From: a virus | Virus record (IMG/VR): IMGVR_UViG_3300042566_001108 | Span: 1-37,735 of that record | Strand: one strand, 5' to 3' | Length of the DNA: 37,735 nucleotides | In this document: positions 3,407-20,359 of the stretch, one piece after another | Layout of the letters: every line of letters begins with the position of its first letter | Position numbering within the stretch: position 1 is the first letter of the stretch | Notes under the pieces: generated by a model | What the model was told of the DNA's origin: nothing | Seen by the model: only the letters and a program-made list of their open reading frames with translations | Databases searched by the model: none | Position numbers and translations under genes: made by a program

Positions 3407-5937
3407 CATATGAAGAAGCTTCTTTGCTCCCAAAGAGTGAGAAAATATCCTTAGTTACTTGTGAAGCAGTTAAACCAGTAAAGTTGTTTACAGTTTACTC
3501 TGGTCTCACCTATAAGAAAATTGTTCCTCACTTTGTAAAAACTGTAAAAGTTTCTGGTATCGAGTTAAACGAAGGGTATGACGAAGATTCCCTGGGTGTT
3601 GGTGATTATTACTTCGATGCTGTAAATAAAACTCTTTATATTAATATCGGTCAGATTCCAAAGCTAGAATCAATTTCGGTTGTTTATAAATTCTTTTTTT
3701 CAAACACTCCACTTGTTTTGCCATGGAACTTAACAGATGGCGAACCTGTTGAATGGCTTCCGTATATCCAAAATATTGGATCAATTGGACAACAATTAGA
3801 TGACGAAAATACTGGAATCGTACTAGAATCTCAAAGCTCGGTTGAGCTTCTTAATAATGAGGGATTCTTTGATTCTATAATTGATTCGTTGATATTCGAA
3901 AACCAATCAATAGTTTTTTATTCTTGGTTCAATAATCTGTCTCGAACTGAGATTAAAAAGATATTTGAAGGTGTTATAGAGTCAAAGGATTTCTCGCCAA
4001 ATAAAGTCACATTAAGAGTAAAAGATTACGTTTTTAGGTTAAAGAATCAGGTCAATTTGGGCCTATTCTCTGAGTCTGATGGTGATGTTCTTGAGTCAGT
4101 ATTAGGTACACCAAAGAGACGTATTTATGGGCAAGTAAAGCAAGCTAAATGCGCACCCATTGATTGTGTTCTTGATGGCTATCCATTAACTGGAACCGTC
4201 TCTTTAACAGTTGACTCAACCACCATGACTGGTGTTGGAACTCAATTTTTAAAAGAACTTAATCAAGATGACGAGTTAATTTTTAGCATACAAGGCGAAG
4301 AAGTTCTTTATAGTGTTGACCTTATTGCAAGTAATACAAGCTTAACTTTAACAAAGAAAGCTGAACAAACACTCATTAATCAATCAATACTAGTTGATCC
4401 AAAACATAAATACAGATTTAAAAATAGAAGATGGCATATTGCTGGTCACAAGATTAGACAAACTGAAGCCATGATTGTAACTGTAATCAATGCAAGAACA
4501 TTTGTTATTGATGATGTGTCTGAGTTTGTTTCTGGTGACGTTGTCAGGATTAATAATCAAACAACACAGGTCACAAGAATTTCAAGTGACCAGATTATAC
4601 TAGAACAAAACATATTCCCTGTTCCAGTTGTTGGCGACATTATAGAACGCTTTCCTGTTACTAAGTTACATTATGGTGAAAGAGAATTATTACCATTTAG
4701 AGATTTTACTCTTACTAATACAACTGAAGCCATTATTGAACTTGATCCATTAGCTGAATTTAACATTGCTAGGGAGATGGTTACAGATCACAACCTATCA
4801 TTTAGAGATGGTCGTTACGATGTTTCATCATCGGCAAATGCTGATTTAAGAACAATTATTAAGCCAGGTGACTTCATTAGACCAACTACACAAAATAATG
4901 AAAACTGGTATGAAGTGCATCATGTAGGGCCACAAATTGTATGGCTTAAAACAATTTTTTCTAACAATGGATCTAACTCAAATCACCCCGCTAGAATCAA
5001 GTCTGTTGATACAGTATCAGATGATTCACTTATTACGGTTGATTGCTATGGTAAAGACACTGATTCAACTTGGATGCGGACAGCTTCAGATTGCGTAAAA
5101 GACCTAGTTGTAAACGACGCTGGTTTTACTGCGATCGATACAAGCTCATTTATTCAAGCTAAGGATGACTGTAAATATACACTCTCAATGGTTATCCCTG
5201 AGAATATAGGCGATGAAGCACCAACAATTAGAGACGTAATTAGCAACATCAATCAATCAGTTTTTGGATCTCTTTACGGAAACTCATCTCAAGAAATAGC
5301 CTACTCAATCGTTAATACTAGAAGACCGCCAACAATGGCAGCCTTAAGAGACGATGACATTCTTTCGTGGGAAGTTCAAACCAACCAAAAGATAGTAAAT
5401 AATGTTAAAGTTAATTATTTGCCTTTCGTTGATAAAGTTACTGGTGAAAATGGGTTTGGCGTTGTTATTTATCAAAATGCATTTGTTGATGAAAACATTG
5501 GAATTAAAAACACTATTGAAAAAACTTGCTACCTATTTAATCCGTCTGATGCGGAAACAATAGCCCAAAGAATAGCGTTCTATTATTCTTTATCTCAGTC
5601 TATTTTGACGCTGAAGGCTAAGGCTAACTTCTTTACTTCATCAGTAAATGATCGGGTTTATATTGACCTAGACAGGCTTTATGCTCGATATGGTGGTAAG
5701 TCAGCAATGAAGATTGGGGTTATTTCTGGCGTTAAAAAGTCAGCATATAACTCTGAAATTATTATGAACGATTTAGGTAATATCTTTAATAGATGCCCTT
5801 CCATTGCTCCAAATGATACGGATAGTTTTACAAACTCAAGTGATGATGAAAAAATAAAGTTCGGATACATACTAGACTCTGATACCTTAATCCCTGGAAA
5901 CGACGAAGAGGATTTAGGTTCTGGTTTAATAGGATAA
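3403..5937 (+). CDS. Large tail protein (tail-tip/baseplate-like structural protein)
   Basis: An 844-residue protein starting at GTG 3403, overlapping the previous stop. It is the largest complete ORF of the window. It is rich in beta-strand patterns, has no signal peptide or coiled coil, and contains a segment (about residues 264-420) with repeated short strands (GTVSLTVDSTTMTGVGTQF) resembling an inserted beta domain. The neighbours are fibre and appendage genes upstream and downstream. In siphoviruses a protein of this size after the distal tail genes is usually the tail-tip hub or fibre-bearing protein. The role is inferred from size and position; no catalytic motif is seen. Confidence 0.75.
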   Translation: MTYEEASLLPKSEKISLVTCEAVKPVKLFTVYSGLTYKKIVPHFVKTVKVSGIELNEGYDEDSLGVGDYYFDAVNKTLYINIGQIPKLESISVVYKFFFSNTPLVLPWNLTDGEPVEWLPYIQNIGSIGQQLDDENTGIVLESQSSVELLNNEGFFDSIIDSLIFENQSIVFYSWFNNLSRTEIKKIFEGVIESKDFSPNKVTLRVKDYVFRLKNQVNLGLFSESDGDVLESVLGTPKRRIYGQVKQAKCAPIDCVLDGYPLTGTVSLTVDSTTMTGVGTQFLKELNQDDELIFSIQGEEVLYSVDLIASNTSLTLTKKAEQTLINQSILVDPKHKYRFKNRRWHIAGHKIRQTEAMIVTVINARTFVIDDVSEFVSGDVVRINNQTTQVTRISSDQIILEQNIFPVPVVGDIIERFPVTKLHYGERELLPFRDFTLTNTTEAIIELDPLAEFNIAREMVTDHNLSFRDGRYDVSSSANADLRTIIKPGDFIRPTTQNNENWYEVHHVGPQIVWLKTIFSNNGSNSNHPARIKSVDTVSDDSLITVDCYGKDTDSTWMRTASDCVKDLVVNDAGFTAIDTSSFIQAKDDCKYTLSMVIPENIGDEAPTIRDVISNINQSVFGSLYGNSSQEIAYSIVNTRRPPTMAALRDDDILSWEVQTNQKIVNNVKVNYLPFVDKVTGENGFGVVIYQNAFVDENIGIKNTIEKTCYLFNPSDAETIAQRIAFYYSLSQSILTLKAKANFFTSSVNDRVYIDLDRLYARYGGKSAMKIGVISGVKKSAYNSEIIMNDLGNIFNRCPSIAPNDTDSFTNSSDDEKIKFGYILDSDTLIPGNDEEDLGSGLIG

Positions 5938-8186: not shown

Positions 8187-8582
8187 TTAATTCTCAAGAG
8201 TATTGCGACTAAATTTGATAACAGTCTTGTCATAGTAACCTCTCTGTTTTGTAACCACTAGTCTTGTAATAAGCGAATCATCTAAACCAATTTCAGCAAA
8301 CACAGTGTCTAGTGTTGCTTTTAATAGGTTATCGCAATCAAGATACCTTTTCCTAATGTTTCCGCTCTTCGTGTAAAATCTATTCGAATGAAAGTTAATC
8401 TCAACCTCTAAACCCTCTGACTCAGTAAACATTCCGTTGATTGAACTGGTGTCAAACCCAGAAAGTAATGCGCTAAGCGTCTTTTTAAACTCTCTTCCCT
8501 CTTTTGAAATGATCGTTCTTCCCCTGAATTGCCTATATAACTTGTTTAAACTTATAGGGATTAAATCTAGCTCGATAATCAT
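8187..8582 (-). CDS. rusA: RusA-family Holliday junction resolvase
   Basis: A 131-residue protein with the RusA signature: YLDCDNLLKATLD (Asp82, Asp84, Asn85, Lys88, Asp92) followed by GLDDSLI (Asp101, Asp102), the acidic residues that bind catalytic metal. RusA enzymes cut four-way DNA junctions. It is the last gene of the leftward operon; its ATG overlaps the stop of the tiny ORF upstream (ATGA). Together with the ERF-like protein, SSB and exonuclease in the same operon it forms a recombination module that probably resolves junctions before packaging. Confidence 0.9.
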   Translation of the reverse strand: MIIELDLIPISLNKLYRQFRGRTIISKEGREFKKTLSALLSGFDTSSINGMFTESEGLEVEINFHSNRFYTKSGNIRKRYLDCDNLLKATLDTVFAEIGLDDSLITRLVVTKQRGYYDKTVIKFSRNTLEN

Positions 8583-9376: not shown

Positions 9377-9746
9377 TGAATATCTCCGTATCTATGTCCA
9401 TTTCGAAAACCATGTTTGAATTATCGGCTCGACATAATGCCTTCCCAGATGAGTTTATCCCAACATAGGTGAACCCATAATTGTATTTATCATAGTCTTG
9501 GAGAGTGAAGACTGTCCCGATTGCCCATGATCTAGCGACTAATTGGGCAAGTGTTTTTGGATCATCGCCCCGATATTTACCAGCAAATACTCTTACTAGG
9601 TGCGGAACAATGTAATAAGGAATGTCTTGCATTGAAAAAAGAAAAGATCGAACTTCAGTGTTGTTTGTTTCAAAACTCGTCAAGAGTTCCAAGGTTAGTT
9701 CTGGTGATCTTTCTAGATCGTCGGCCAATTGATTCATCGTTTTCAT
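9366..9746 (-). CDS. Hypothetical protein in early operon
   Basis: A 126-residue protein. I place the start at 9746 rather than 9761 because the sequence AGAGGTATTA directly precedes this ATG, the same ribosome-binding context used at 11764, 15637 and 16284. It begins inside the 3' end of the exonuclease gene (77-base overlap). The N-terminus is helical (NQLADDLERSPELTLELLTS); the rest is mixed. No family is recognised. Confidence 0.7.
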   Translation of the reverse strand: MKTMNQLADDLERSPELTLELLTSFETNNTEVRSFLFSMQDIPYYIVPHLVRVFAGKYRGDDPKTLAQLVARSWAIGTVFTLQDYDKYNYGFTYVGINSSGKALCRADNSNMVFEMDIDTEIFNVF

Positions 9747-10326
9747 TAATACCTCTTTCATAGTTGTAAAGCTCCTCTCTATTCGTCATAGGGAGAAGTC
9801 TTTTTATTATTTCCACAGTTGCCAAGCAATCTGATTCAGCATTGTGGTGATTGAGTTTAATACCTAATTTCTTGCATATATTATCTAGCGAGTTTGATTC
9901 AAAAGTAAAGCGGTCATGTAATACTTTCGCTAGGGAGTGTGTTGAGTATGGTTTAAGTTTATTAACTTCAAAGTATGGCAAATCACCCATATTAAGCATT
10001 TGCAAACGAAGTATTGCATAATCGTAAGGAACAATTTTACCATACATTTTGACGTTTGAGTGACACCAAAACTCAGTCGCTTCAGTCATTCGAATAAAGC
10101 TTAAAATGTCCTCGTAAACATCGCTAAATTTCTTATATGTGCTTGCTTCACGTTCACTTATTCCATGAACCGCCTCAGCTTCTTTAGACCATTTCCATGG
10201 GCGACATTGTATAGACAATGTATTAACCACGTTAAACGAATCATCTAAACATGCAAAGAAGCCTGTAATGATTTCTGCTTCAAATACATTTAAACTCGTC
10301 GTTTCAAAATCTGCAACTAATATCAA
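9670..10326 (-). CDS. DnaQ-type 3'-5' exonuclease
   Basis: A 218-residue protein with the three exonuclease motifs of the DEDD family: ADFETT at the N-terminus (Asp6, Glu8), YDYAIL near residue 102 (Asp102) and HNAESD near residues 161-166 (His161, Asp166), making it DEDDh type like the polymerase III epsilon subunit. It removes nucleotides from 3' ends, either as a proofreading-like or a recombination end-processing activity. There is no polymerase domain. It lies between SSB and a hypothetical gene and overlaps SSB by four bases. The C-terminal tail is rich in Arg and Asn. Confidence 0.88.
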   Translation of the reverse strand: MILVADFETTSLNVFEAEIITGFFACLDDSFNVVNTLSIQCRPWKWSKEAEAVHGISEREASTYKKFSDVYEDILSFIRMTEATEFWCHSNVKMYGKIVPYDYAILRLQMLNMGDLPYFEVNKLKPYSTHSLAKVLHDRFTFESNSLDNICKKLGIKLNHHNAESDCLATVEIIKRLLPMTNREELYNYERGINENDESIGRRSRKITRTNLGTLDEF

Positions 10327-10637
10327 GCAACTTCCTTTGCAGAAGTAAATTGAGATTCAACAACTACAATTTGAGTCTTGGTGACTCCATCTTTCTCATA
10401 GTAATCTAGCGTTCCCTCGACAAATAATTCTTTACCATCGTGCAAGTATTTACCCAAAAGTTCAGCAAGCTTTCCATAGGCAACGCACGAGTGAAATAGT
10501 GCTTTATCTTTCTCACCTTCGCCCATGCGCTTATAAGTTGTAAGAGTAAAAAATGTAATTGGCTTTCCATTTTTACTTGTCATTGTTTTTGTGTTGTAAA
10601 CTTTACCCAATAAAATAACTTGATTCACACCTAACAT
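10323..10637 (-). CDS. ssb: Single-stranded DNA-binding protein
   Basis: A 104-residue OB-fold protein of the bacterial SSB type: VNQVILLGKVYNTKTM at the N-terminus, then ITFFTLTTYKR, FHSCVAYGKLAELLGKYL and ELFVEGTLDYYEKDGVTKTQ, which follow the SSB strand order. It is shorter than cellular SSB and lacks the acidic C-terminal tip that recruits partner proteins; it ends in SAKEVA. It binds single-stranded DNA during replication and recombination. It starts 3 bases after the ERF-like gene's stop. Confidence 0.9.
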   Translation of the reverse strand: MLGVNQVILLGKVYNTKTMTSKNGKPITFFTLTTYKRMGEGEKDKALFHSCVAYGKLAELLGKYLHDGKELFVEGTLDYYEKDGVTKTQIVVVESQFTSAKEVA

Positions 10638-10640
10638 ATA

Positions 10641-11216
10641 TTAATTCCTTTTTGCTTCACCGATTAATCTTGATGCTTCATCTTTTGTGATATTTTCTTC
10701 GAACTTAATTCCCATCTTTCTAAGTGCGTTCTTTTGTGCATCACTAGCGGCACCTTGCAGTGGTCTTTGTTGACCGATACCATCTACTTGAAAAGTAGGT
10801 TTTACAATTTCTTTAACTGGTGCTTTTACTGATTGAGATTGAGGAATGGAAACTGAGTTTCCGTCATCATCCTCATCCGCAGTTGAAATTCCTAATAGTG
10901 CTTGTAATTGGTAACGCTTGTAATATGTAATAAGAGATCCCATTTTTTGGGGATCTTGTAATACTGGCATAATCATTTCAGAGGATAATTCTTCACCTGA
11001 TTCATGTAAAAGTTTAGTGACTAATAGTGTTGATGATTCATTCACCTTCATAGTTTGAACCACCGCCAAACCATTAAGAGCAAGCGGACTTCTAACTGCA
11101 TCTAAAATACCAGAAAGGGTCAGATAGTCTGATTTAAAAAATGGGTTCTGAGCGTCTTTTCTTATTGGTTTAAATTGTGAATGGAATTTTACGAGTGCTT
11201 GACTTAGATTTTTCAT
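10641..11216 (-). CDS. erf: ERF-family single-strand annealing protein
   Basis: A 191-residue protein. The N-terminal 120 residues carry ERF hallmarks: NPFFKSDYLTLSGILDAV, then GLAVVQT, a HESGEELSSEM segment and GSLITYYKRYQLQALLGIS followed by DEDDDGN. ERF proteins anneal complementary strands and promote phage recombination or circularisation. The C-terminal part is a linker and a small helical module (NALRKMGIKFEENITKDEA). AGAGG precedes the ATG by a normal distance. The start lies inside the end of the zinc-finger gene (47-base overlap). Confidence 0.9.
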   Translation of the reverse strand: MKNLSQALVKFHSQFKPIRKDAQNPFFKSDYLTLSGILDAVRSPLALNGLAVVQTMKVNESSTLLVTKLLHESGEELSSEMIMPVLQDPQKMGSLITYYKRYQLQALLGISTADEDDDGNSVSIPQSQSVKAPVKEIVKPTFQVDGIGQQRPLQGAASDAQKNALRKMGIKFEENITKDEASRLIGEAKRN

Positions 11217-12082: not shown

Positions 12083-12156
12083 TAAGTATTATCAATTATT
12101 TAGGGTTTACAAATCATATTGTTTTTCTTAAATATCTAATACGGCCCTGGGGGATT

Positions 12157-12224
12157 CTTGTTTCGCCCCTCACGTTGCCAATTGGAAAGGTCGTACATGG
12201 TTGCGTGCTCTAGTCTGAAACAAG
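12157..12224. ncRNA. Foldable GC-richer segment, possible structured RNA
   Basis: An outer perfect 8-bp inverted repeat (CTTGTTTC at 12157-12164 with GAAACAAG at 12217-12224) encloses an inner helix (12171-12179 with 12199-12207; C-G, A-T, C-G, G-C, then wobble pairs, one mismatch and two C-G pairs). The segment is clearly richer in G and C than the surrounding intergenic DNA. No known RNA family is recognised, and an origin or protein-binding site would look similar. Confidence 0.35.
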
Positions 12225-12329
12225 CTTGTTAACTTCGGCTCCGAAAAGCATAATAGCTTAAGGTTATAGAAGAAAATGAGGACAGGATGAATAAGCTATA
12301 AGGTTTTTATCTTAATGGTTGTTTTCATC

Positions 12330-12413
12330 TTAGTTCTCTTCTTGTTTCTTCTCACCAAAAAGCATGTTTATTAATACATACTTACTAAGAATTTCTTCTG
12401 TTACTAGTTGCAC
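12330..12413 (-). CDS. Possible tiny leftward peptide
   Basis: A 27-residue frame from GTG 12413 to TAA 12330 with plausible composition: VTEEILSKYVLINMLFG followed by a charged tail EKKQEEN. There is no clear ribosome-binding site. It is listed because the composition resembles a small amphipathic phage peptide; it may be chance. Confidence 0.25.
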   Translation of the reverse strand: MQLVTEEILSKYVLINMLFGEKKQEEN

Positions 12414-12484
12414 CCAAAGATTCTTTCTGACTGCTTAACATTACATAATTTGACTTAACTAGAATTGATTGTAACCATAATATC

Positions 12485-13450
12485 ATGAGTAAAGTTACCT
12501 TTCATGATTTAGTGGTAAAACTAAAAGAATTAGCTAATGAGTTAGGTAAGACACCAACTTTAAGAGATTTTACAGATTCTGGTGTTTCAAGAAGACAAAT
12601 AGATAAATACAAATATTCTAAGATAGTTGACGCCGCTGGTTTACAGCCAAATGCTCATTCTAAGACTACACCTCCAATAGAAGTAGTGATTAAGCCACCA
12701 AGAATTCTCTTTTTTGATATTGAAACTGCCCCTATAACTGGTTATTCGTGGGGAATTTATGAACAAAATATTTTAAAAGTAATTAACGATTGGTTTGTAC
12801 TTTCTTTTTCTGGAAGATTTTTGGGCGAAGCAAAACACAATTACATGGATCAAAGAAATTCAAAAAATATTAGCAATGATGAAGAATTAATAAAATATTG
12901 TCACAAAGTATTGTTAGAAGCGGATATTTTGGTTTCCCATAATGGAGATCGATTCGATATAAAAAAATTAAATGCAAGGTTTATAAAATATGACCTACCT
13001 CCGATAAACCACTATAAATCTATAGATACTTTAAAAATAGCAAGAAAGTTTTTTTCATTTACTAGCAACAAACTTTCTGACTTGGCTAATTATTTGAATT
13101 GTGAAAACAAAAAATCAACACATTCAAAATATCCTGGTTTCTCAATGTGGGAGGAGTGTCTCAAGGGAAATAAAGAAGCATTTAAAGAAATGGAAGCCTA
13201 TAACAAAATGGACGTTGATGTTTTAGAAAATGTTTATAATAAATTAGCAAAATGGGACAATTCAATAAATTTTTCTTCATTTTATCAAACGCAGATTTGT
13301 ATTTGTGGTGAAAAAGAGTTTAAAAAAGACGGTGTAAAATTTACAAAGTCTGGTAGCTTTCAAATATATCGATGTAAAAAATGTGGTAAAACATTTACAG
13401 CAAAAGAAAATTTAATACATAAAGAAATTAGAAAATTATTACCCAAATGA
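12485..13450 (+). CDS. HTH-repeat / DEDD exonuclease / zinc-ribbon fusion protein
   Basis: A 321-residue protein with three parts. Residues 7-53 (KELANELGKTPTLRDF ... SKIVDAAGL) resemble the helical DNA-binding repeat that accompanies homing endonucleases. Residues about 73-257 are a predicted RNase H-fold exonuclease: FFDIETAP (Asp78, Glu80), LVSHNGDRFDIKKL (Asp158) and YNKMDVDVLENVY (Asp243/Asp245). Residues 272-303 form a zinc ribbon (CIC, then CKKC). It acts on DNA or RNA ends, presumably directed by the flanking DNA-binding parts. No Shine-Dalgarno sequence precedes ATG 12485. It overlaps the following HNH gene by four bases. Confidence 0.75.
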   Translation: MSKVTFHDLVVKLKELANELGKTPTLRDFTDSGVSRRQIDKYKYSKIVDAAGLQPNAHSKTTPPIEVVIKPPRILFFDIETAPITGYSWGIYEQNILKVINDWFVLSFSGRFLGEAKHNYMDQRNSKNISNDEELIKYCHKVLLEADILVSHNGDRFDIKKLNARFIKYDLPPINHYKSIDTLKIARKFFSFTSNKLSDLANYLNCENKKSTHSKYPGFSMWEECLKGNKEAFKEMEAYNKMDVDVLENVYNKLAKWDNSINFSSFYQTQICICGEKEFKKDGVKFTKSGSFQIYRCKKCGKTFTAKENLIHKEIRKLLPK

Positions 13451-14127
13451 ATATTTGTAAAATATGCAATAAAGAATTTAATCAAACAAAACAAAGAAAA
13501 ATTCTTTGTAGTTCTGAATGTAACGAACAAAATAAAAAATTAATTAAGAGAAATTATTATTTAAGGAATGTTGATTTGTGTAAAAAAAGATCAAAAGATA
13601 GAGTTTTAAATGGCTATAAATGGGCACCAACTAATGAACAAAAAGAAAAATATAAAGAAAAAAGAAAAAAATACTACAGAATTAACAAGCTTAATAATCC
13701 AGAAAAAATAAAAAAAATTTACGATAAGGCAAATAATACAGAGAAAAGAAAAAAATACATGAAAGAATATTCTAAAAATTCAGAACAAAAACAAAAGGAA
13801 AAAGAAAGGGTTGCAAAATACAGAGCAAAACCATCAACCAAAGAAGTAAGATATACTGATCATTACAAAAGAAAATACGGAATTACAGCACAAGATTACG
13901 ACATTATGTTAATGAGCCAAAATGGTTTTTGTAAAATATGCAAACAACCAGAGACAAAACTATTTAGAGGAAAATTGACAAGGTTAGCAGTGGATCATTG
14001 TCATAAAACAGGGAAAGTTAGAGGATTGCTTTGCTGGAGTTGTAACACGACATTAGGAAAAGTAAAAGATTCTATTGATTTGTTATTAAATATGGCAAAT
14101 TACTTAAAAGAAAGCATTCAGAATTAA
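13447..14127 (+). CDS. Endonuclease VII-like HNH nuclease
   Basis: A 226-residue protein. The C-terminal half matches recombination endonuclease VII: YKRKYGITAQDYDIMLMSQN, Cys162 and Cys165, AVDHCHKTGKVRGLLCWSCN (Asp183, His184, His186, Cys196, Cys199, Asn200) and a final helix. This His-Me fold cuts branched DNA or acts as a homing nuclease. The N-terminus has its own Cys cluster (CKIC, C21, C25) and the middle is a very Lys/Asn-rich helix. The coding sequence is unusually A-rich compared with neighbours, suggesting separate acquisition. Coupled to the preceding exonuclease gene (ATGA). Confidence 0.82.
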   Translation: MNICKICNKEFNQTKQRKILCSSECNEQNKKLIKRNYYLRNVDLCKKRSKDRVLNGYKWAPTNEQKEKYKEKRKKYYRINKLNNPEKIKKIYDKANNTEKRKKYMKEYSKNSEQKQKEKERVAKYRAKPSTKEVRYTDHYKRKYGITAQDYDIMLMSQNGFCKICKQPETKLFRGKLTRLAVDHCHKTGKVRGLLCWSCNTTLGKVKDSIDLLLNMANYLKESIQN

Positions 14128-14185
14128 GTGATTCGGTCGGGCAATATTCTGTTTAATATCTAGTCGTTCTTGATACGATTAAGGA

Positions 14186-14509
14186 ATGAAAAAACTACCT
14201 AAATCTGTGATGATTTTTGGCCGTAAGATTCCTGTTTTAACCTTATCCTCAGAAGAGATAAAAAAACTTTACCCTGATTTTACCCATGCTCCTCAAGGTC
14301 TTTGGGACTCTTGCCAAAGAACTATAATAATTAATAATGAGTTTCCAATACAAGACCAAGGCTACACCCTTAAGCATGAAATTGCTCATAGTGTTATGAC
14401 CTTTGTAGGCCTTGATTTAATTATTGATCCAAACGTGCAAGAGATAATTGTTCAAACTATGGCGACACTTCTAGAGGACGTTTTAAAGCAAGCGAATAGT
14501 CTAAAATGA
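14186..14509 (+). CDS. Putative zinc metallopeptidase-like protein (HExxH)
   Basis: A 107-residue protein with HEIAH at residues 64-68 inside a predicted helix (TLKHEIAHSVMTFVGL) and a later helix containing Glu86, an arrangement found in small phage proteins related to zincin or ImmA-like peptidases. AAGGA precedes the ATG. There is no signal peptide. It is not the same family as the metzincin-like protein at 8692. The substrate is unknown. Confidence 0.7.
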   Translation: MKKLPKSVMIFGRKIPVLTLSSEEIKKLYPDFTHAPQGLWDSCQRTIIINNEFPIQDQGYTLKHEIAHSVMTFVGLDLIIDPNVQEIIVQTMATLLEDVLKQANSLK

Positions 14510-14766
14510 GCGCAAGAGTTCTGTTTATAAACACAGGTTATCTTCCAACGCATGACGAATGGGTTAGGTTAGAAAATATTCAAAGAGAGATTTCTGGATG
14601 GCGCGCCGAGTTGTTTCGAGAGTGGGAATTAAAGCGATTTACACCAGGCGAAAGATACTTATCTAAACAGAGATTCCATCATGGAGTAAGAGATAACTGG
14701 AAGATTTATCAAGGGTTTAATATAAAAAATACAAACACCCTTTACTTGCCTAATAACCTAGCCTAA
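14506..14766 (+). CDS. Hypothetical protein
   Basis: An 86-residue protein overlapping the previous stop (ATGA). It is rich in Trp and Arg (EWVRLENIQREISGWRAELF), mixed helix, without membrane segment or recognised motif. The coupling suggests a shared role with the HExxH protein, but nothing else supports that. Confidence 0.65.
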   Translation: MSARVLFINTGYLPTHDEWVRLENIQREISGWRAELFREWELKRFTPGERYLSKQRFHHGVRDNWKIYQGFNIKNTNTLYLPNNLA

Positions 14767-14800
14767 GGTTTACCCTACATAAAAATAGTAGGGGTTTAAA

Positions 14801-15397
14801 ATGGTTTATATTGATTACGTCAAAAGAGCTAAAGAATTACTAACACAAATTGAATGTCATCAGGTTGAAATAGCTTATCTTGCCACAATCGTTTGCGAAA
14901 TAAAACATGGCGGAAGACAAACATCTAAAGAATACAATTTAACAAAGTTTGCTAAAGACATTGGAGTCAATCGCAAAACCCTTTCAGGGTGGGTTTTAGT
15001 TTATAAAAACATTATAAAAAAAATAGGAATACATTATAAAGAGGTAACAAAAGCTGACTGGGAAAAGGCTAGTTTAATTGACGATTACCTAAGGCAAGAG
15101 ATTCGAATCATGCAAACAATCGAAGGAAACAAAAGAAAAAAAGGCGCATACAAAGAACTCTCAGAAGACTATATAAAAGATATATATGGAAAAGCCTATT
15201 CAACTATTGAGTTGCAACAAAAAATAAATAATTGGAACAGATATGTAATCTTTATAAAAAACAACCTACAATCAAAAGAGTTAAATTTAGTTAGCGCATC
15301 GTCTTTGTTGTCCATAAAAGAAAACATGGATGCCGCATCGGATATCATACTAAGACATTTAACAATGGGGAAAAAAAATGATTCATCAATCAAATGA
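14801..15397 (+). CDS. HTH DNA-binding protein
   Basis: A 198-residue protein with AGGGG before the ATG. Residues about 44-70 (YNLTKFAKDIGVNRKTLSGW) form a helix-turn-helix; the remainder is long helices rich in Lys and Ile. It overlaps the XRE regulator gene downstream by 20 bases. It could be a regulator or replication initiator; no ATPase or helicase motifs are present. The family is not identified. Confidence 0.7.
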   Translation: MVYIDYVKRAKELLTQIECHQVEIAYLATIVCEIKHGGRQTSKEYNLTKFAKDIGVNRKTLSGWVLVYKNIIKKIGIHYKEVTKADWEKASLIDDYLRQEIRIMQTIEGNKRKKGAYKELSEDYIKDIYGKAYSTIELQQKINNWNRYVIFIKNNLQSKELNLVSASSLLSIKENMDAASDIILRHLTMGKKNDSSIK

Positions 15398-15677
15398 AGT
15401 GGCTAAACTTATGAGAGAGAAACGAAGGGAACTTAAAATGTCTCAAAGAGAATTATCTTCTAGAGTTGGATTTTCAACAAAGGAAGGTCAATTTATAAGT
15501 AACGTAGAGCGTCAGAAATGTCAGTTTCCTATTCGCTACATAAGTAAACTTGCAAATGCTCTTGAAGTTTCAGAACAAACCATCATAGAATTAATGGCTC
15601 AAGACTATAAGAACGCAATTATTAAAGAGGTATTAAATGCATCTGAATTATCTAATCAAGCAAATAATCAGCTATGA
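15378..15677 (+). CDS. XRE-type HTH regulator
   Basis: A 99-residue protein whose residues about 8-65 follow the Cro/CI-type fold: LMREKRRELKMSQRELSSRV, then EGQFISNVERQKC and YISKLANALEVSEQTI. It has no protease or dimerisation domain beyond a short C-terminal helix. It begins within the end of the upstream HTH gene. It probably regulates early or late transcription; the GTAC cluster at 12052 is a possible target, by inference. Confidence 0.82.
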   Translation: MIHQSNEVAKLMREKRRELKMSQRELSSRVGFSTKEGQFISNVERQKCQFPIRYISKLANALEVSEQTIIELMAQDYKNAIIKEVLNASELSNQANNQL

Positions 15678-15864
15678 ACATTCATTAGAAAATAAACTCG
15701 ACATGCTAACAGAAATAGCAATCATGACGAGCAATAATAAGGTATTAAAGGCAACTGAAGAGGTCAGACATGAGTTGGTACGTATCGAAAAGAATTCTAA
15801 AGACGGGTCAGACGATATTCGAAGTCACGAACACCCAGGTCACATTAGTAATTTTCAGTTATAG
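15637..15864 (+). CDS. Hypothetical small helical protein
   Basis: A 75-residue protein that begins 41 bases inside the regulator gene. AGAGGTATTAA immediately before its ATG strongly supports this start. The sequence is helical and acidic/basic mixed (HSLENKLDMLTEIAIM), ending in a His-rich polar tail. The function is unknown. Confidence 0.65.
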   Translation: MHLNYLIKQIISYEHSLENKLDMLTEIAIMTSNNKVLKATEEVRHELVRIEKNSKDGSDDIRSHEHPGHISNFQL

Positions 15865-15894
15865 AGAATTAATCAAATTTCTTGAGGCTAACCG

Positions 15895-16272
15895 ATGACA
15901 ATCAGAAAATCAATTTCACACCCAGAATTACTAGTTGGATCAAACGGCTCTATTTATCATGCTGACACTGGTCAAAGAATTAATCTTATTCAAGATCATG
16001 GAACTACTATGCGTGGTCATATGATTGCCTATAAACATCTTGGAAAGACCAAGCAGCTATCAGTTTTAAGGCTAGTCTTTGAAGCTCATATAAAGAAATC
16101 AAAGATACAATATAATGATTATGTGGAAGTCATTGATGGGAATGACTATAACCCTGATGCAAGTAACTTAACCACAGGGTCAAGGTATAGAAAACCGGCT
16201 AAGAAAACTAAGACCAACAAAGATGGCGAAGCTTACTCTACATGGATGGGTATTGATGAGGTATATTGCTAA
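15895..16272 (+). CDS. HNH/NUMOD-like DNA-binding protein lacking a clear catalytic centre
   Basis: A 125-residue protein with GAGG before the ATG. The segment SNGSIYHADTGQRINLIQDH, then KTKQLSVLRLVFEAHI and DYVEVIDGNDYNPDASNL follows the layout of NUMOD4/HNH proteins, where the last part would hold HxDgNxxNN. Here the catalytic His is replaced (VIDGNDYN), so nuclease activity is doubtful. It may be a degenerate homing endonuclease now used for DNA binding. This is inference from pattern similarity. Confidence 0.55.
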   Translation: MTIRKSISHPELLVGSNGSIYHADTGQRINLIQDHGTTMRGHMIAYKHLGKTKQLSVLRLVFEAHIKKSKIQYNDYVEVIDGNDYNPDASNLTTGSRYRKPAKKTKTNKDGEAYSTWMGIDEVYC

Positions 16273-16283
16273 AGGGGTATTAA

Positions 16284-16589
16284 ATGAACGATAAAGACAA
16301 AGAAGCATTTGAGAAGTGGGAGCTAGATTATTTTGGACAAAATGATAATTGCCCTCACTATATGTTACATATCAAAAATACATGGCAAGCCGCTTGTGAG
16401 TATAAGCAAAAAGATTATAAAACAATATTGGATGCTATGTATTTGATAAGCCAAAATTATAAAAACCTGGAAGCCAAAAATAAAAAGTTAAAAGATGCTC
16501 TTGAGAATTGTTTGATAATGAGTCCATTAGACCCATTTGAGAGAGGTGACATGATTAGAGAAGCACTAAAAGAAATACCAATTGAGTAA
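16284..16589 (+). CDS. Hypothetical protein
   Basis: A 101-residue protein with AGGGGTATTAA before its ATG. It starts with DKEAFEKWELDYFG and has WQAACEYKQKDY, a layout common in small phage proteins of unknown role; the second half is a helical or coiled segment (YKNLEAKNKKLKDALENC). No enzymatic motif is seen. Confidence 0.7.
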   Translation: MNDKDKEAFEKWELDYFGQNDNCPHYMLHIKNTWQAACEYKQKDYKTILDAMYLISQNYKNLEAKNKKLKDALENCLIMSPLDPFERGDMIREALKEIPIE

Positions 16590-16664
16590 CCGAAAGGTTT
16601 GGTTTAACAAAACTGCCGTGATTTTGTGTGTGTCCTCATTGCTCAATGTGGGGAATATTTAAAT

Positions 16665-16937
16665 ATGAAAAACTACAAATCAAATAAGCCATGTATTGCG
16701 TGTGGTGAGTCTAAAGATGGATTTGTCTGTTTTCATCACGTGAAGACTAGAAAATCAGGCGGAACAGATGAGGAACATAATCTAATGCCTTTATGCGCTT
16801 GGTGTCACACAACGATTCATAAGATTGGATTGGTTACGATGGCAAAAAAGCATGTCTCAATTCATAATTGGCTAGTAAAGAACGGTTGGGAGTTTCATAT
16901 GGGCAAATGGATACTTTTAAAGGAAAACAATGATTAA
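16665..16937 (+). CDS. HNH endonuclease-like protein
   Basis: A 90-residue protein with a compact HNH motif: CIAC near residues 10-13, FHHVKTRKSGGTDEEHNLMP (His24/His25, Asn39) and CAWCHTTIH (Cys44, Cys47, His48, His52). All metal and catalytic positions are present. I start it at ATG 16665 (GGGG 11 bases upstream) rather than at an upstream frame extension from 16626 that lacks a site. Its end overlaps the methyltransferase start by 8 bases, which could indicate a linked nuclease/methylase pair. Confidence 0.78.
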   Translation: MKNYKSNKPCIACGESKDGFVCFHHVKTRKSGGTDEEHNLMPLCAWCHTTIHKIGLVTMAKKHVSIHNWLVKNGWEFHMGKWILLKENND

Positions 16938-17685
16938 TTTGATGCATGGTGATTGCTTAGAGTTAATGAAATCAATATCAGACAAGTCTATTGACATGGT
17001 TTTGACTGACCCGCCATATGGGACAACGGCTTGTAAATGGGACGTTGTTATTCCGTTTGAATTAATGTGGGAACAAATCAGAAGGGCAACCAAACCAAAG
17101 GGCGCAATTTTATTGTTTGGAAGTGAGCCTTTCAGTTCACATTTAAGAATAAGTAATTTAAAAATGTTTAAGCATGATCTAGTGTGGGAAAAAGACAAGC
17201 CATCGGGTTTCTTAAACGCAAAAAAATATCACATGAAATATTATGAAATGATCCATCTTTTTTGTAATGGAGTTCCCCTATATAATCCACAATTCATTTC
17301 AGCAAAACCCATGAACACAGTTTATTATGGAGGTAATTCAAAAAGTGATAATTATGGAAATTATAAAAAGGTAGAAAATACAAGAAAAAATACAGATATC
17401 AGATACCCGAAAGACGTTTTAAAATTTAACACTGTTAATGGTCAATCAAAGGAAAAATTTCATCCAACTCAAAAACCTGTACCTCTTCTTGAATACTTAA
17501 TCAAAACATACACACTAGAAAATGAAACCGTCCTAGACTTTACCATGGGCAGCGGCTCAACTGGTGTGGCTTGCAAAAATCTTAATCGAAAATTTATTGG
17601 AATTGAAAAGGATGAAAAATACTTTGAGATTGCTAAAAATAGAATAGAAAGTCACAATTCACAGGGACTAGGTTCATCAGAATAA
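16930..17685 (+). CDS. DNA methyltransferase (DPPY type)
   Basis: A 251-residue AdoMet-dependent DNA methylase. The catalytic DPPY lies at residues 27-30, the phrase HPTQKP at 178-183, and the AdoMet-binding DFTMGSGSTG at 203-212, so the motif order (catalytic first, AdoMet site last) is that of beta-class adenine-N6 or cytosine-N4 methylases. The variable region between (about 95-175) would recognise the target. It probably protects phage DNA from host restriction or pairs with the HNH protein encoded just upstream. No standard restriction endonuclease gene is seen. Confidence 0.92.
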   Translation: MINLMHGDCLELMKSISDKSIDMVLTDPPYGTTACKWDVVIPFELMWEQIRRATKPKGAILLFGSEPFSSHLRISNLKMFKHDLVWEKDKPSGFLNAKKYHMKYYEMIHLFCNGVPLYNPQFISAKPMNTVYYGGNSKSDNYGNYKKVENTRKNTDIRYPKDVLKFNTVNGQSKEKFHPTQKPVPLLEYLIKTYTLENETVLDFTMGSGSTGVACKNLNRKFIGIEKDEKYFEIAKNRIESHNSQGLGSSE

Positions 17686-17897
17686 ATGATAATTGTCTCT
17701 GGTAGGTTGTCAGGCGTTCCAAGCTCCCAATGATATGACTCGGCTTCAGATCCTTCATAACTTTCAGAATAACTTGATTCTATACTGGAATTAGTATTTT
17801 CTTCTTTTATACTGTAATCCGAATAAATAGCTTGTAATAGATAATCATTAGGGTAGAAAACTGGCATTGATAGAATAAAAACTATAATATTCTTCAT
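17652..17897 (-). CDS. Possible small secreted or membrane-anchored acidic protein
   Basis: An 81-residue leftward ORF in a gap between rightward genes, overlapping the methylase end by 34 bases. It has an N-terminal hydrophobic start (MKNIIVFILSMPVF) and a Ser/Glu-rich tail (SSYSESYEGSEAESYHWE). No strong ribosome-binding site is visible, but the sequence ACCATGTAAA at 17924-17933 upstream repeats the -35 region of the main leftward promoter. A stand-alone gene of this type could be a moron-like insertion. It may not be expressed. Confidence 0.45.
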   Translation of the reverse strand: MKNIIVFILSMPVFYPNDYLLQAIYSDYSIKEENTNSSIESSYSESYEGSEAESYHWELGTPDNLPETIIIYSDEPSPCEL

Positions 17898-17999
17898 TTT
17901 TATAGGATAAACCCTATTGACGAACCATGTAAAGATTACTTAGTCTGAGAATAAGAGTCGGTGACTCGCAACCAGAATCCAGTGGATTGAGGTTTATTT

Positions 18000-18179
18000 A
18001 TGGAAGAAATTGGTGCAATTAACGCTATTCTTAGCGCAATCAAGACACGTGTTGACGGTTCAGTCAGCATCACAATCGAAGCAAACCCAAGCGAAATAGA
18101 AGTAATTAATAAGCTAATGCAGTCTTATTTGATTGATAAGCGAGTCTTTACTGTCGCATTTATTCGGGTGGATGAATGA
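18000..18179 (+). CDS. Small hypothetical protein upstream of terminase
   Basis: A 59-residue protein with GAGGTTTATTT before ATG 18000 and a stop overlapping the small terminase start (ATGA). It reads as a small alpha/beta fold (TRVDGSVSITIEANPSEIEV). The coupling and normal codon use support it. It is the first gene of the packaging and head block, about 100 bases after a TTGACG (17917) that could be a -35 box, although no good -10 follows. Confidence 0.7.
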   Translation: MEEIGAINAILSAIKTRVDGSVSITIEANPSEIEVINKLMQSYLIDKRVFTVAFIRVDE

Positions 18180-18610
18180 AAAAGCATCCAGGTGGAAGAC
18201 CTTCAGATTATGATCCTAGACATATAACTGAAATGTTAGAGTTCTTTCAAAATTGGGAACCATTTAGAGAAGTTGAAAAAGAAATTGCCTCAGGTGGGCG
18301 AAAAGTTGTGATTAAAGAACGCCTTGTAAACTATCCGCCAACACTAAACAAATATGCAATTAAGCTTGGAATAGACAGAACCACCCTTAAAAGATGGGCG
18401 GAAGAACACCCAGAGTTTTGCATCACATATAAAGCGTGTAAGACAATTCAGGAAGAATGGCTGTCAGACAGAGGAACGACTGGAGAGTATCACGCAGGGT
18501 TTACTCAATTAATGCTAACAAACCATTCAGATATTAAGCAAAAGATCACGCATGAAGTAGAATCTTCAAAGATTGAAATTAACATTGATAAGAAAGATAG
18601 TGATTTATGA
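18176..18610 (+). CDS. terS: Terminase small subunit
   Basis: A 144-residue protein: GGRPSDYDPRHITEMLEFF at the N-terminus, a helix-turn-helix in the middle (LNKYAIKLGIDRTTLKRWAE) and EEHPEF followed by a helical oligomerisation-like segment, typical of small terminase subunits that recognise the packaging site. It is followed by an inserted HNH gene and then the large subunit. Start and stop overlap neighbours by four bases each. Confidence 0.82.
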   Translation: MKKHPGGRPSDYDPRHITEMLEFFQNWEPFREVEKEIASGGRKVVIKERLVNYPPTLNKYAIKLGIDRTTLKRWAEEHPEFCITYKACKTIQEEWLSDRGTTGEYHAGFTQLMLTNHSDIKQKITHEVESSKIEINIDKKDSDL

Positions 18611-19107
18611 TTGAAACATGGAAAAGAATTAATGAAACAGACTATGAGGTTTCTAGTTTTGGTTTGGTAAGACATATAAAAAATGGAATTAAAAAAATAA
18701 ACATTCACAAAAATGGTTATGCATCAGTCTCTATTTGGTCAAAAGGAAAAGAAAAAAGGCTGTTGGTTCATAGATTGGTTGCAATGTCTTTTATTGGGGA
18801 TATTAAAGATTTGGAAGTAAATCATAAAGATTTTAATAAGCTTAATAACTCTGTTGATAACTTAGAAATTGTAACATCGGCTCAAAACATTAAACACGCA
18901 AAAGACGGTAAACGATTTAAGGGAAACAAATTGATTTCGGGAGAAAAAAACCCTTCAGCAAAACTAACAATTGAAGAAGTTTTGATAATTAGAAAAATGA
19001 AATCTAATGGCTCCAAATATGCTGAAATTCTTTCAAGGTTTAATATAAAAAAATCACAGCTTACAAATATAGTTTCTGGGAAATCATGGAAAAATGTTCC
19101 AGTTTAG
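18607..19107 (+). CDS. Homing-endonuclease-like HNH protein (NUMOD4 type) between terminase genes
   Basis: A 166-residue protein with a NUMOD4 start (WKRINETDYEVSSFGLVRH), a NUMOD/HNH core (LLVHRLVAMSFIG, then VNHKDFNKLNNSVDNLEIVT, giving the HKDxNxxNN signature) and a C-terminal helix-turn-helix (RKMKSNGSKYAEILSRFNI) for DNA targeting. These are free-standing homing nucleases. It overlaps the small terminase stop by four bases and the large terminase start by 14, so it sits between the subunits without breaking either. Its coding sequence is more A-rich than the flanking genes. Confidence 0.85.
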   Translation: MIETWKRINETDYEVSSFGLVRHIKNGIKKINIHKNGYASVSIWSKGKEKRLLVHRLVAMSFIGDIKDLEVNHKDFNKLNNSVDNLEIVTSAQNIKHAKDGKRFKGNKLISGEKNPSAKLTIEEVLIIRKMKSNGSKYAEILSRFNIKKSQLTNIVSGKSWKNVPV

Positions 19108-20359
19108 AAAAACTGATAAACAGGTAGAGGCAATAAACAAGTTATCTGGCAAAGCTAGACACATAATGCTTTATGGTGGATCTAGGTCGGGAAAAACGTT
19201 TATTTCAGTTTACGCAATCATTGTTAGAGCTTGCAAAATAAAATCTAGGCACGTTATTTTAAGGCTAAACTTTAACCACATTAAGACATCAATTTGGCTC
19301 GATACTCTTCCAAAGGTTTTAAAGATTGCATTTCCAAACTTACCAGTTGAATGGAACAAGTCAGACTATTACGTCACACTTCCAAATGGATCTGAAATAT
19401 GGGTTGCTGGATTGGATGACGAGAAAAGGGTAGAAAAGATTTTAGGTAAGGAGTATTCAACAATTTATTTTAATGAATGCTCTCAAATACCGCACAAATC
19501 AATTCAAATTGCTCTTACCAGGTTAGCTGAAAAAAATGACTTAAGAAAGAAAGCTTATTATGACGAAAATCCACCATCAAAAAAGCATTGGTCATATTGG
19601 TTGTTTATTAAAAAACTAGATCCTGTTGATAACGTACCGATAGAATCAGATAAATATGATTCACTTATAATGAACCCCAAAGATAATATTGAAAACATTG
19701 ATGAGGATTATATTTCTGAAGTTTTAGATAACTTATCGGAAACACAAAAGAAAAGATTTAGAGATGGCGAGTTTACCTCTGATGATGACGGGGTTGCATA
19801 CTATTCTTTTGATAGAGAAAAGCATGTTTGCGAGATACCTAAAAAGGCTCTTGTTGGTCAAAGACTTGTTGGCATGGACTTTAACGTACAGCCAATGACT
19901 GCCGTTGTGTGTCATTATTCCAACAAGATTTTTCATATATTTGACGAAGTGTTTTTAGAAAACTCCGATACTTTTAAGATTACCGATCATTTAATAAGAA
20001 ACGGTCATAAAGGGGCTAGTATTTTCCCAGACTCAACAGGAAAAAATAGAAAGACTTCAGGTAAGTCGGATCATCACATTTTACAGGAAGCAGGATTTAA
20101 TGTTCAATATACTAGAAACCCATTAGTAATTGATCGGGTTAATAATATAAACAGGCTTCTCATGGAAGGTAGAATTGTGATTTCTCCAAACTGTAAAAAG
20201 TTAATAAATGACCTTGAGAAAGTTAGCTGGAAAGATGGTCAGTTAGACCAAAAAACAGATAAGATGCTTACACATATTACGGACGCTTTAGGGTATTTGT
20301 GTTGGGCAATTGAACCACTTAAAGAAAAGCAGCCTGAATCTAAATTTACTCAACTATAG
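19094..20359 (+). CDS. terL: Terminase large subunit
   Basis: A 421-residue DNA-packaging motor. The Walker A motif GGSRSGKT is at residues 28-35, Walker B with the catalytic Glu (TIYFNECSQ) at 123-131, and the nuclease acidic residues are in VGMDFNVQ (Asp262), IFPDSTGK (Asp313) and ITDALGYL (Asp397). It translocates DNA into the prohead and cuts it. The start is within the end of the homing-type gene; the site before the ATG (TGGAAAA) is weak, so translation is probably coupled. Confidence 0.95.
   Translation: MFQFRKTDKQVEAINKLSGKARHIMLYGGSRSGKTFISVYAIIVRACKIKSRHVILRLNFNHIKTSIWLDTLPKVLKIAFPNLPVEWNKSDYYVTLPNGSEIWVAGLDDEKRVEKILGKEYSTIYFNECSQIPHKSIQIALTRLAEKNDLRKKAYYDENPPSKKHWSYWLFIKKLDPVDNVPIESDKYDSLIMNPKDNIENIDEDYISEVLDNLSETQKKRFRDGEFTSDDDGVAYYSFDREKHVCEIPKKALVGQRLVGMDFNVQPMTAVVCHYSNKIFHIFDEVFLENSDTFKITDHLIRNGHKGASIFPDSTGKNRKTSGKSDHHILQEAGFNVQYTRNPLVIDRVNNINRLLMEGRIVISPNCKKLINDLEKVSWKDGQLDQKTDKMLTHITDALGYLCWAIEPLKEKQPESKFTQL

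Follow-up and report, generated by a model that had tools for sequence, protein, structure and literature searches.

Known systems

Proteins with the EndoVII motif are of two kinds, resolvases, in which the motif is mostly N-terminal, and an endonuclease clade, in which it is mostly C-terminal (PMC6083498). The latter contains intron endonucleases and F-CphI of cyanophage S-PM2, a DHHRN homing endonuclease associated with an intron in psbA, which is the characterised EndoVII-type homing case described in that paper. The list of DHHRN residues used below has the same source. Intronless homing by free-standing endonucleases is described for T4, where several of these enzymes were shown to be active (PMC2988022). 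Three of them, SegF, SegG and MobE, considered there in connection with marker exclusion, are of the GIY-YIG or HNH type.

We analysed a stretch of 37,735 nucleotides, positions 1 to 37,735 of IMG/VR virus record IMGVR_UViG_3300042566_001108 (further called the window). It comes from an uncultivated phage, in which an exonuclease gene is followed by an EndoVII-type nuclease gene. The 226-aa product of the latter is probably a free-standing EndoVII/DHHRN homing-type endonuclease like F-CphI, inserted between the resident exonuclease gene and the next gene and spreading by cutting empty alleles. As with SegF, SegG and MobE in the account of PMC2988022, an optional free-standing nuclease lies between two conserved genes, and neighbouring alleles are exchanged in linkage. 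However, the T4 enzymes belong to other nuclease types and several have demonstrated activity, whereas the window protein is of the EndoVII type and known from sequence. The locus thus appears to be a clear instance of a selfish phage gene of known type, not a new two-enzyme machine.

The exonuclease

The gene at 12485..13450 (plus strand) encodes a 321-aa DEDDy 3'-5' exonuclease of the phrog_403 family, identified by Pfam, PHROG, a family alignment and the predicted structure. It has an HTH-like HNH_repeat (about residues 6-50), a PolB-type core (about 71-261) and a zinc ribbon (272-300). The PHROG match (E 3.5e-79, residues 45-317) covers the core and the zinc ribbon, and the Pfam match is to RNase_H_2 (E 5.7e-15). 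In the family alignment (A3; the window and 24 relatives, with near-copies L025, L035, L036, L038 and duplicate contigs left out), the DEDDy residues D78, E80, D158, Y239, D243 and the four zinc-ribbon cysteines CxC...CxxC are invariant in all 25 sequences. The predicted structure has a mean pLDDT of 84.4, and its core aligns with P. calidifontis PolB over 170 residues (VIA-align Z 17.6, rmsd 2.5; VIA-align was run on Foldseek matches only, and the exonuclease core fills the match list). Family B polymerases have the same kind of DEDDy core as their proofreading domain. In contrast to them, the window protein is free-standing; it has a zinc ribbon, begins with the HTH-like repeat and lacks a polymerase domain. 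Judging from its sequence, it is most likely an ordinary phage replication and recombination exonuclease, serving as the target or the neighbour of a homing gene.

The N-terminal repeat is weak: PF18780 matches with E 9.1e-5 and 23.2 bits, below the curated cut-off of 26. We nevertheless count it as real, since it recurs just under the cut-off in three relatives scanned (E 5e-5 to 1.2e-4) and is conserved in 17 of the 25 aligned family members, 16 of them recognised by the sequence pattern and one, L009, missed by the pattern and added from its Pfam match. Four short helices are predicted at residues 6-50. Among the 17 repeat-bearing members EndoVII adjoins the exonuclease in the window only. 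Therefore the repeat belongs to the exonuclease family rather than to a homing module, and we rejected it as a sign of homing, as it does not travel with the nuclease. The sole basis of the homing-type label is the name of the Pfam family.

The leader of the exonuclease gene (12399..12484, plus strand) is almost the same as in the close relative L022. Further upstream, the non-coding region 12116-12398 differs from both L022 and another close relative, L003, and aligns with L007; it has no Rfam match.

The EndoVII-type nuclease

The inserted gene occupies 13447..14127 on the plus strand; its assignment comes from Pfam, PHROG, a motif check, the alignment with empty sites and a tree. The Endonuclease_7 match (PF02945, E 1.1e-24) covers residues 139-221 of 226, and thus the catalytic domain is C-terminal. 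The N-terminal region is rich in Lys and Arg and contains a CxxC...CxxxC motif. The DHHRN residues are complete (DHCH, R, CxxCN), with DHCHKTGKVRGLLCWSCN at 183-200 and, in addition, C162 and C165. An earlier note, made from the sequence alone, had described an EndoVII-like HNH gene beside a 321-residue protein that joins an N-terminal repeat, a DEDD exonuclease and a zinc ribbon, both genes being more A-rich than their surroundings. The nuclease assignment was borne out, all three parts of the exonuclease were recovered (the repeat below the Pfam cut-off), and the two genes do stand out as A-rich, having the lowest GC3 of the 36 window genes.

Residues 123-221 are 45.5% identical to F-CphI. 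As described for F-CphI in PMC6083498, the motif is C-terminal with all DHHRN residues, and the gene is optional and adjacent to a conserved gene. An intron, such as the psbA intron with which F-CphI is associated, was not found in the window by the Rfam scan, and the neighbour is the exonuclease gene (neither the Rfam nor the tRNA scan gave any match in the window). Moreover, the basic N-terminal region is longer than in F-CphI, and the homing activity of the window protein is only a prediction. Among solved structures the best match is the restriction enzyme Hpy99I (E 1.3e-5); the AlphaFold model is poor (mean pLDDT 58). In a tree of 21 rows the protein falls into a group that contains F-CphI and two intron-encoded endonucleases and is separated from resolvases of the T4 gp49 type, with modest support (82/57 for the split, 93/85 for a 14-row inner group) and long branches. 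We found no copy of the gene at a second site. Its nearest viral relatives (L011-L013) share 46-48% identity with a part of the protein.

One alternative is that the protein is a Holliday junction resolvase forming a recombination module with the exonuclease. Gene order gives this some appeal. In some Autographiviridae the order is DNA polymerase, exonuclease, EndoVII, phrog_403 exonuclease, and several podoviruses have EndoVII directly upstream of the phrog_403 exonuclease, as does the distant phage L028. This arrangement was seen in all five podoviral regions fetched, including NUT11, where the unannotated gene was taken from the ORF; a sixth region, pphageBV72, obtained by the exonuclease search, has a different HNH gene in the EndoVII slot. 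However, in the window the order is reversed, and the podoviral proteins of HHBS14, SnaR1 and PSTNGR1 have the N-terminal resolvase layout as opposed to the C-terminal layout of the window protein. T4 endonuclease VII (gp49) and the podoviral resolvases share its catalytic motif, but they carry it N-terminally and form a separate group in the tree; the gp49 layout, an N-terminal catalytic domain with a resolvase-type C-terminal part, is not that of the window protein. The window phage has instead a RusA-like resolvase (8187..8582, minus strand; PF05866, E 4.6e-7; phrog_34), and therefore does not need the EndoVII gene as a resolvase. An argument of this type is made in PMC6083498 for podoviruses that have another resolvase and thus no need of EndoVII in this role. 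Finally, the gene is absent from close relatives. Overall, a resolvase module is improbable. An EndoVII gene next to an exonuclease gene may thus encode a resolvase or be a homing gene; domain order helps to tell which. On the minus strand, recombination genes (for an RNase_T exonuclease, SSB and ERF) lie at 9670-11216, with RusA further along.

Is the pair conserved?

We examined 29 virus records, the window included, which were fetched via the exonuclease. PF02945 was found in two of them, the window and L028, where EndoVII lies just upstream of the exonuclease. Close relatives L002, L003 and L022 contain the empty site, the exonuclease without EndoVII. The gene downstream of EndoVII in the window lies 54 bp behind the exonuclease gene in L002 and L003. 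This downstream gene is a conserved IrrE/M78-like gene (14186..14509, plus strand), whose Pfam match is sub-threshold in the window and above the cut-off in L004; in relatives lacking the insert it comes directly after the exonuclease. A search with the two proteins joined gave two-piece matches in 15 of the 40 rows listed, 11 of these 15 being Stenotrophomonas phages.

Thus the exonuclease and EndoVII were rejected as a conserved pair: EndoVII is found in two of 29 records, and the podoviruses inspected have the reverse order. The co-occurrence check proposed in the earlier note revealed no conserved pairing, and the fused or coupled exonuclease-nuclease system suggested there found no support, as 27 of the 29 records lack EndoVII and three relatives have empty sites. 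The note had also named what would speak against its reading, relatives with the two genes independent and the N-terminal repeat absent. Indeed, the genes are independent in nearly all relatives, but the repeat is kept in 17 of 25. From its idea of homing aided by end processing, the homing-type cutter and allele exchange at the locus remain; the fused or coupled two-enzyme system does not.

The strongest form of that idea is a cut-and-resect pair, where the nuclease would cut competitor DNA and the co-translated exonuclease would resect it, making homing faster or destroying competing phages. The two ORFs overlap by 4 bp (ATGA) and have a common base composition: GC3 is 0.169 in EndoVII and 0.176 in the exonuclease, compared with a mean of 0.262 (sd 0.046) in the other 34 window genes. 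T4 exonucleases influence homing and co-conversion according to PMC2988022, and by that example help from an exonuclease is plausible in general; for the present pair such help is hypothetical. However, 27 of 29 records fetched via the exonuclease have no EndoVII. The exonuclease has an ATGA overlap with the next gene also in L004, L005, L006 and L040, where the next gene is the M78-like one, and therefore the coupling to EndoVII is not special. We consider such a pair very improbable.

Allele exchange at the locus

The most informative comparison is with L022, which matches the window without mismatch over 12427-12552 and 14228-19116 and has four mismatches in 14124-14227. Between these stretches lies a differing tract, 12553..14123 (plus strand), consisting of the exonuclease from codon 23 and EndoVII. 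The L022 exonuclease is a different allele, 53% identical to that of the window in amino acids, and EndoVII is absent. Since the flanks are identical and the tract is different, the tract was exchanged. This provides a natural pair of genomes with and without a probable free-standing homing endonuclease of the EndoVII type, and the right flank is the same in both over 4.9 kb.

The right junction (14124..14185, plus strand) is TTAAGTGATT with the spacer behind it; it comes after the inserted gene, whose TAA stop it provides. The joint lies in TTAAGTGA. In L003 and L022 these bases hold the final exonuclease codon and the stop, in the window the TAA stop of EndoVII.

A third exonuclease allele occurs in L003 (65% nucleotide identity with the window). 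The next gene of L003 is 94% identical to that of the window, the region 14801-15397 is 99% identical, and most aligned stretches are within 87-97%. In the comparison of L002 with L003 the exonuclease is 84% identical, inside the 70-85% range of their other genes compared. As read from the aligned genomes, one exonuclease allele has thus replaced another here, once along with the nuclease. The alleles of L003 and L022 differ although neither phage has EndoVII, and therefore allele swapping does not need the EndoVII nuclease.

Four SNPs lie to the right of the insert, and at each of them the window has the base of L003; L022 may therefore be recombinant on its right side. It may even have lost the EndoVII gene, and the alignments are compatible both with gain in the window lineage and with loss in L022. 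Additional right-flank scans returned L022 and L003 in one case, and L022, L003 and L031 in the other. A scan of genome contigs gave nine distant relatives and no close prophage. Named phages among the matches listed share no more than about 30% identity with the window TerL.

The most likely course of events is the following. The EndoVII gene would have inserted at the 3' end of the exonuclease gene, between it and the next gene. Co-infecting relatives without the nuclease would then be cut in the exonuclease gene or at its 3' junction, and the break would be repaired by copying the nuclease gene along with the exonuclease allele linked to it, in the manner of the intronless homing of T4 free-standing endonucleases. 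The optional gene with its empty site, the exchanged tract, the homing-type group, the intact catalytic residues and the resident resolvase are established in the sequences; from them we infer the cutting activity, the target site and co-conversion as the cause of the exchange. The lowest GC3, shared by the two genes, also speaks for this course. However, codons 1-30 of the exonuclease, largely shared with L022, have a GC3 as low as the rest of the gene, and the case for co-transfer from base composition is weaker for it.

Ordinary recombination could also have swapped the exonuclease and EndoVII block as a part of general phage mosaicism, with no role for the nuclease activity. Three other places (the methyltransferase gene at 16930, 15895-16272 and 12116-12398) also differ between the window and L003, and exonuclease alleles differ among genomes without EndoVII. 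However, the boundary coincides exactly with the inserted nuclease and unrelated nucleases cluster there, which fits homing better, and the catalytic residues of EndoVII are intact. Mosaicism of this sort is thus an unlikely, though not negligible, explanation.

Nuclease genes beside the exonuclease

A profile scan covered 23 of the 29 records, small or distant ones being left out, and 21 non-redundant records (760 kb; without L024 and L025, near-copies of L008) were used to count 26 over-cut-off matches to PF02945, PF13392 and PF01844. Seven HNH-type matches are located 1 kb or less from the exonuclease, whereas the rate in the rest of the sequence predicts 1.09 (Poisson P 1.4e-4). When the window is left out, the numbers are six and 1.04 (P 7e-4). 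These probabilities are indicative only, given the post hoc nature of the test and the relatedness of the records. The matches are EndoVII in the window and L028, HNH_3 in L009 and L040, NUMOD4-HNH_3 in L029, and an HNH match in L030 with an additional HNH_3 past the next gene. The count excludes an HNHc_6 gene upstream of the L009 exonuclease. Such clustering agrees with PMC10448857, where homing genes are described to cluster at essential genes and at exchange boundaries. Thus nuclease genes seem to have landed repeatedly beside this phage exonuclease gene.

A bolder reading is that the exonuclease gene is a shared battleground, where unrelated nucleases (EndoVII, HNH_3, NUMOD4-HNH, HNH) settle time and again and one allele replaces another among phages that are identical elsewhere. 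The reason would be that the exonuclease has two roles, as the carrier of the cut site and in the processing of the ends, each nuclease spreading with the allele that best serves and survives it. We regard this as rather unlikely, and prefer the simpler reading of a free-standing homing endonuclease next to a resident gene.

Several other loci deserve mention. A minus-strand HNH_3 gene follows the exonuclease in L009 (6962-7450), in the same place as EndoVII in the window. A NUMOD4/HNH_3 gene (18607-19107) lies between the small and large terminase genes of the window; HNH_3 matches are present in the L003 and L022 records as well. The region 15895-16272 differs between the window and L003. 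The DNA methyltransferase gene at 16930-17685 is 3% covered in L003, while both its flanks are conserved, and thus it is another exchanged locus. In L008 the ORF at 3725-4195 starts with a long Gly-Leu repeat, and ORFs on the opposite strand have Pro-Arg and Asp-Pro repeats.
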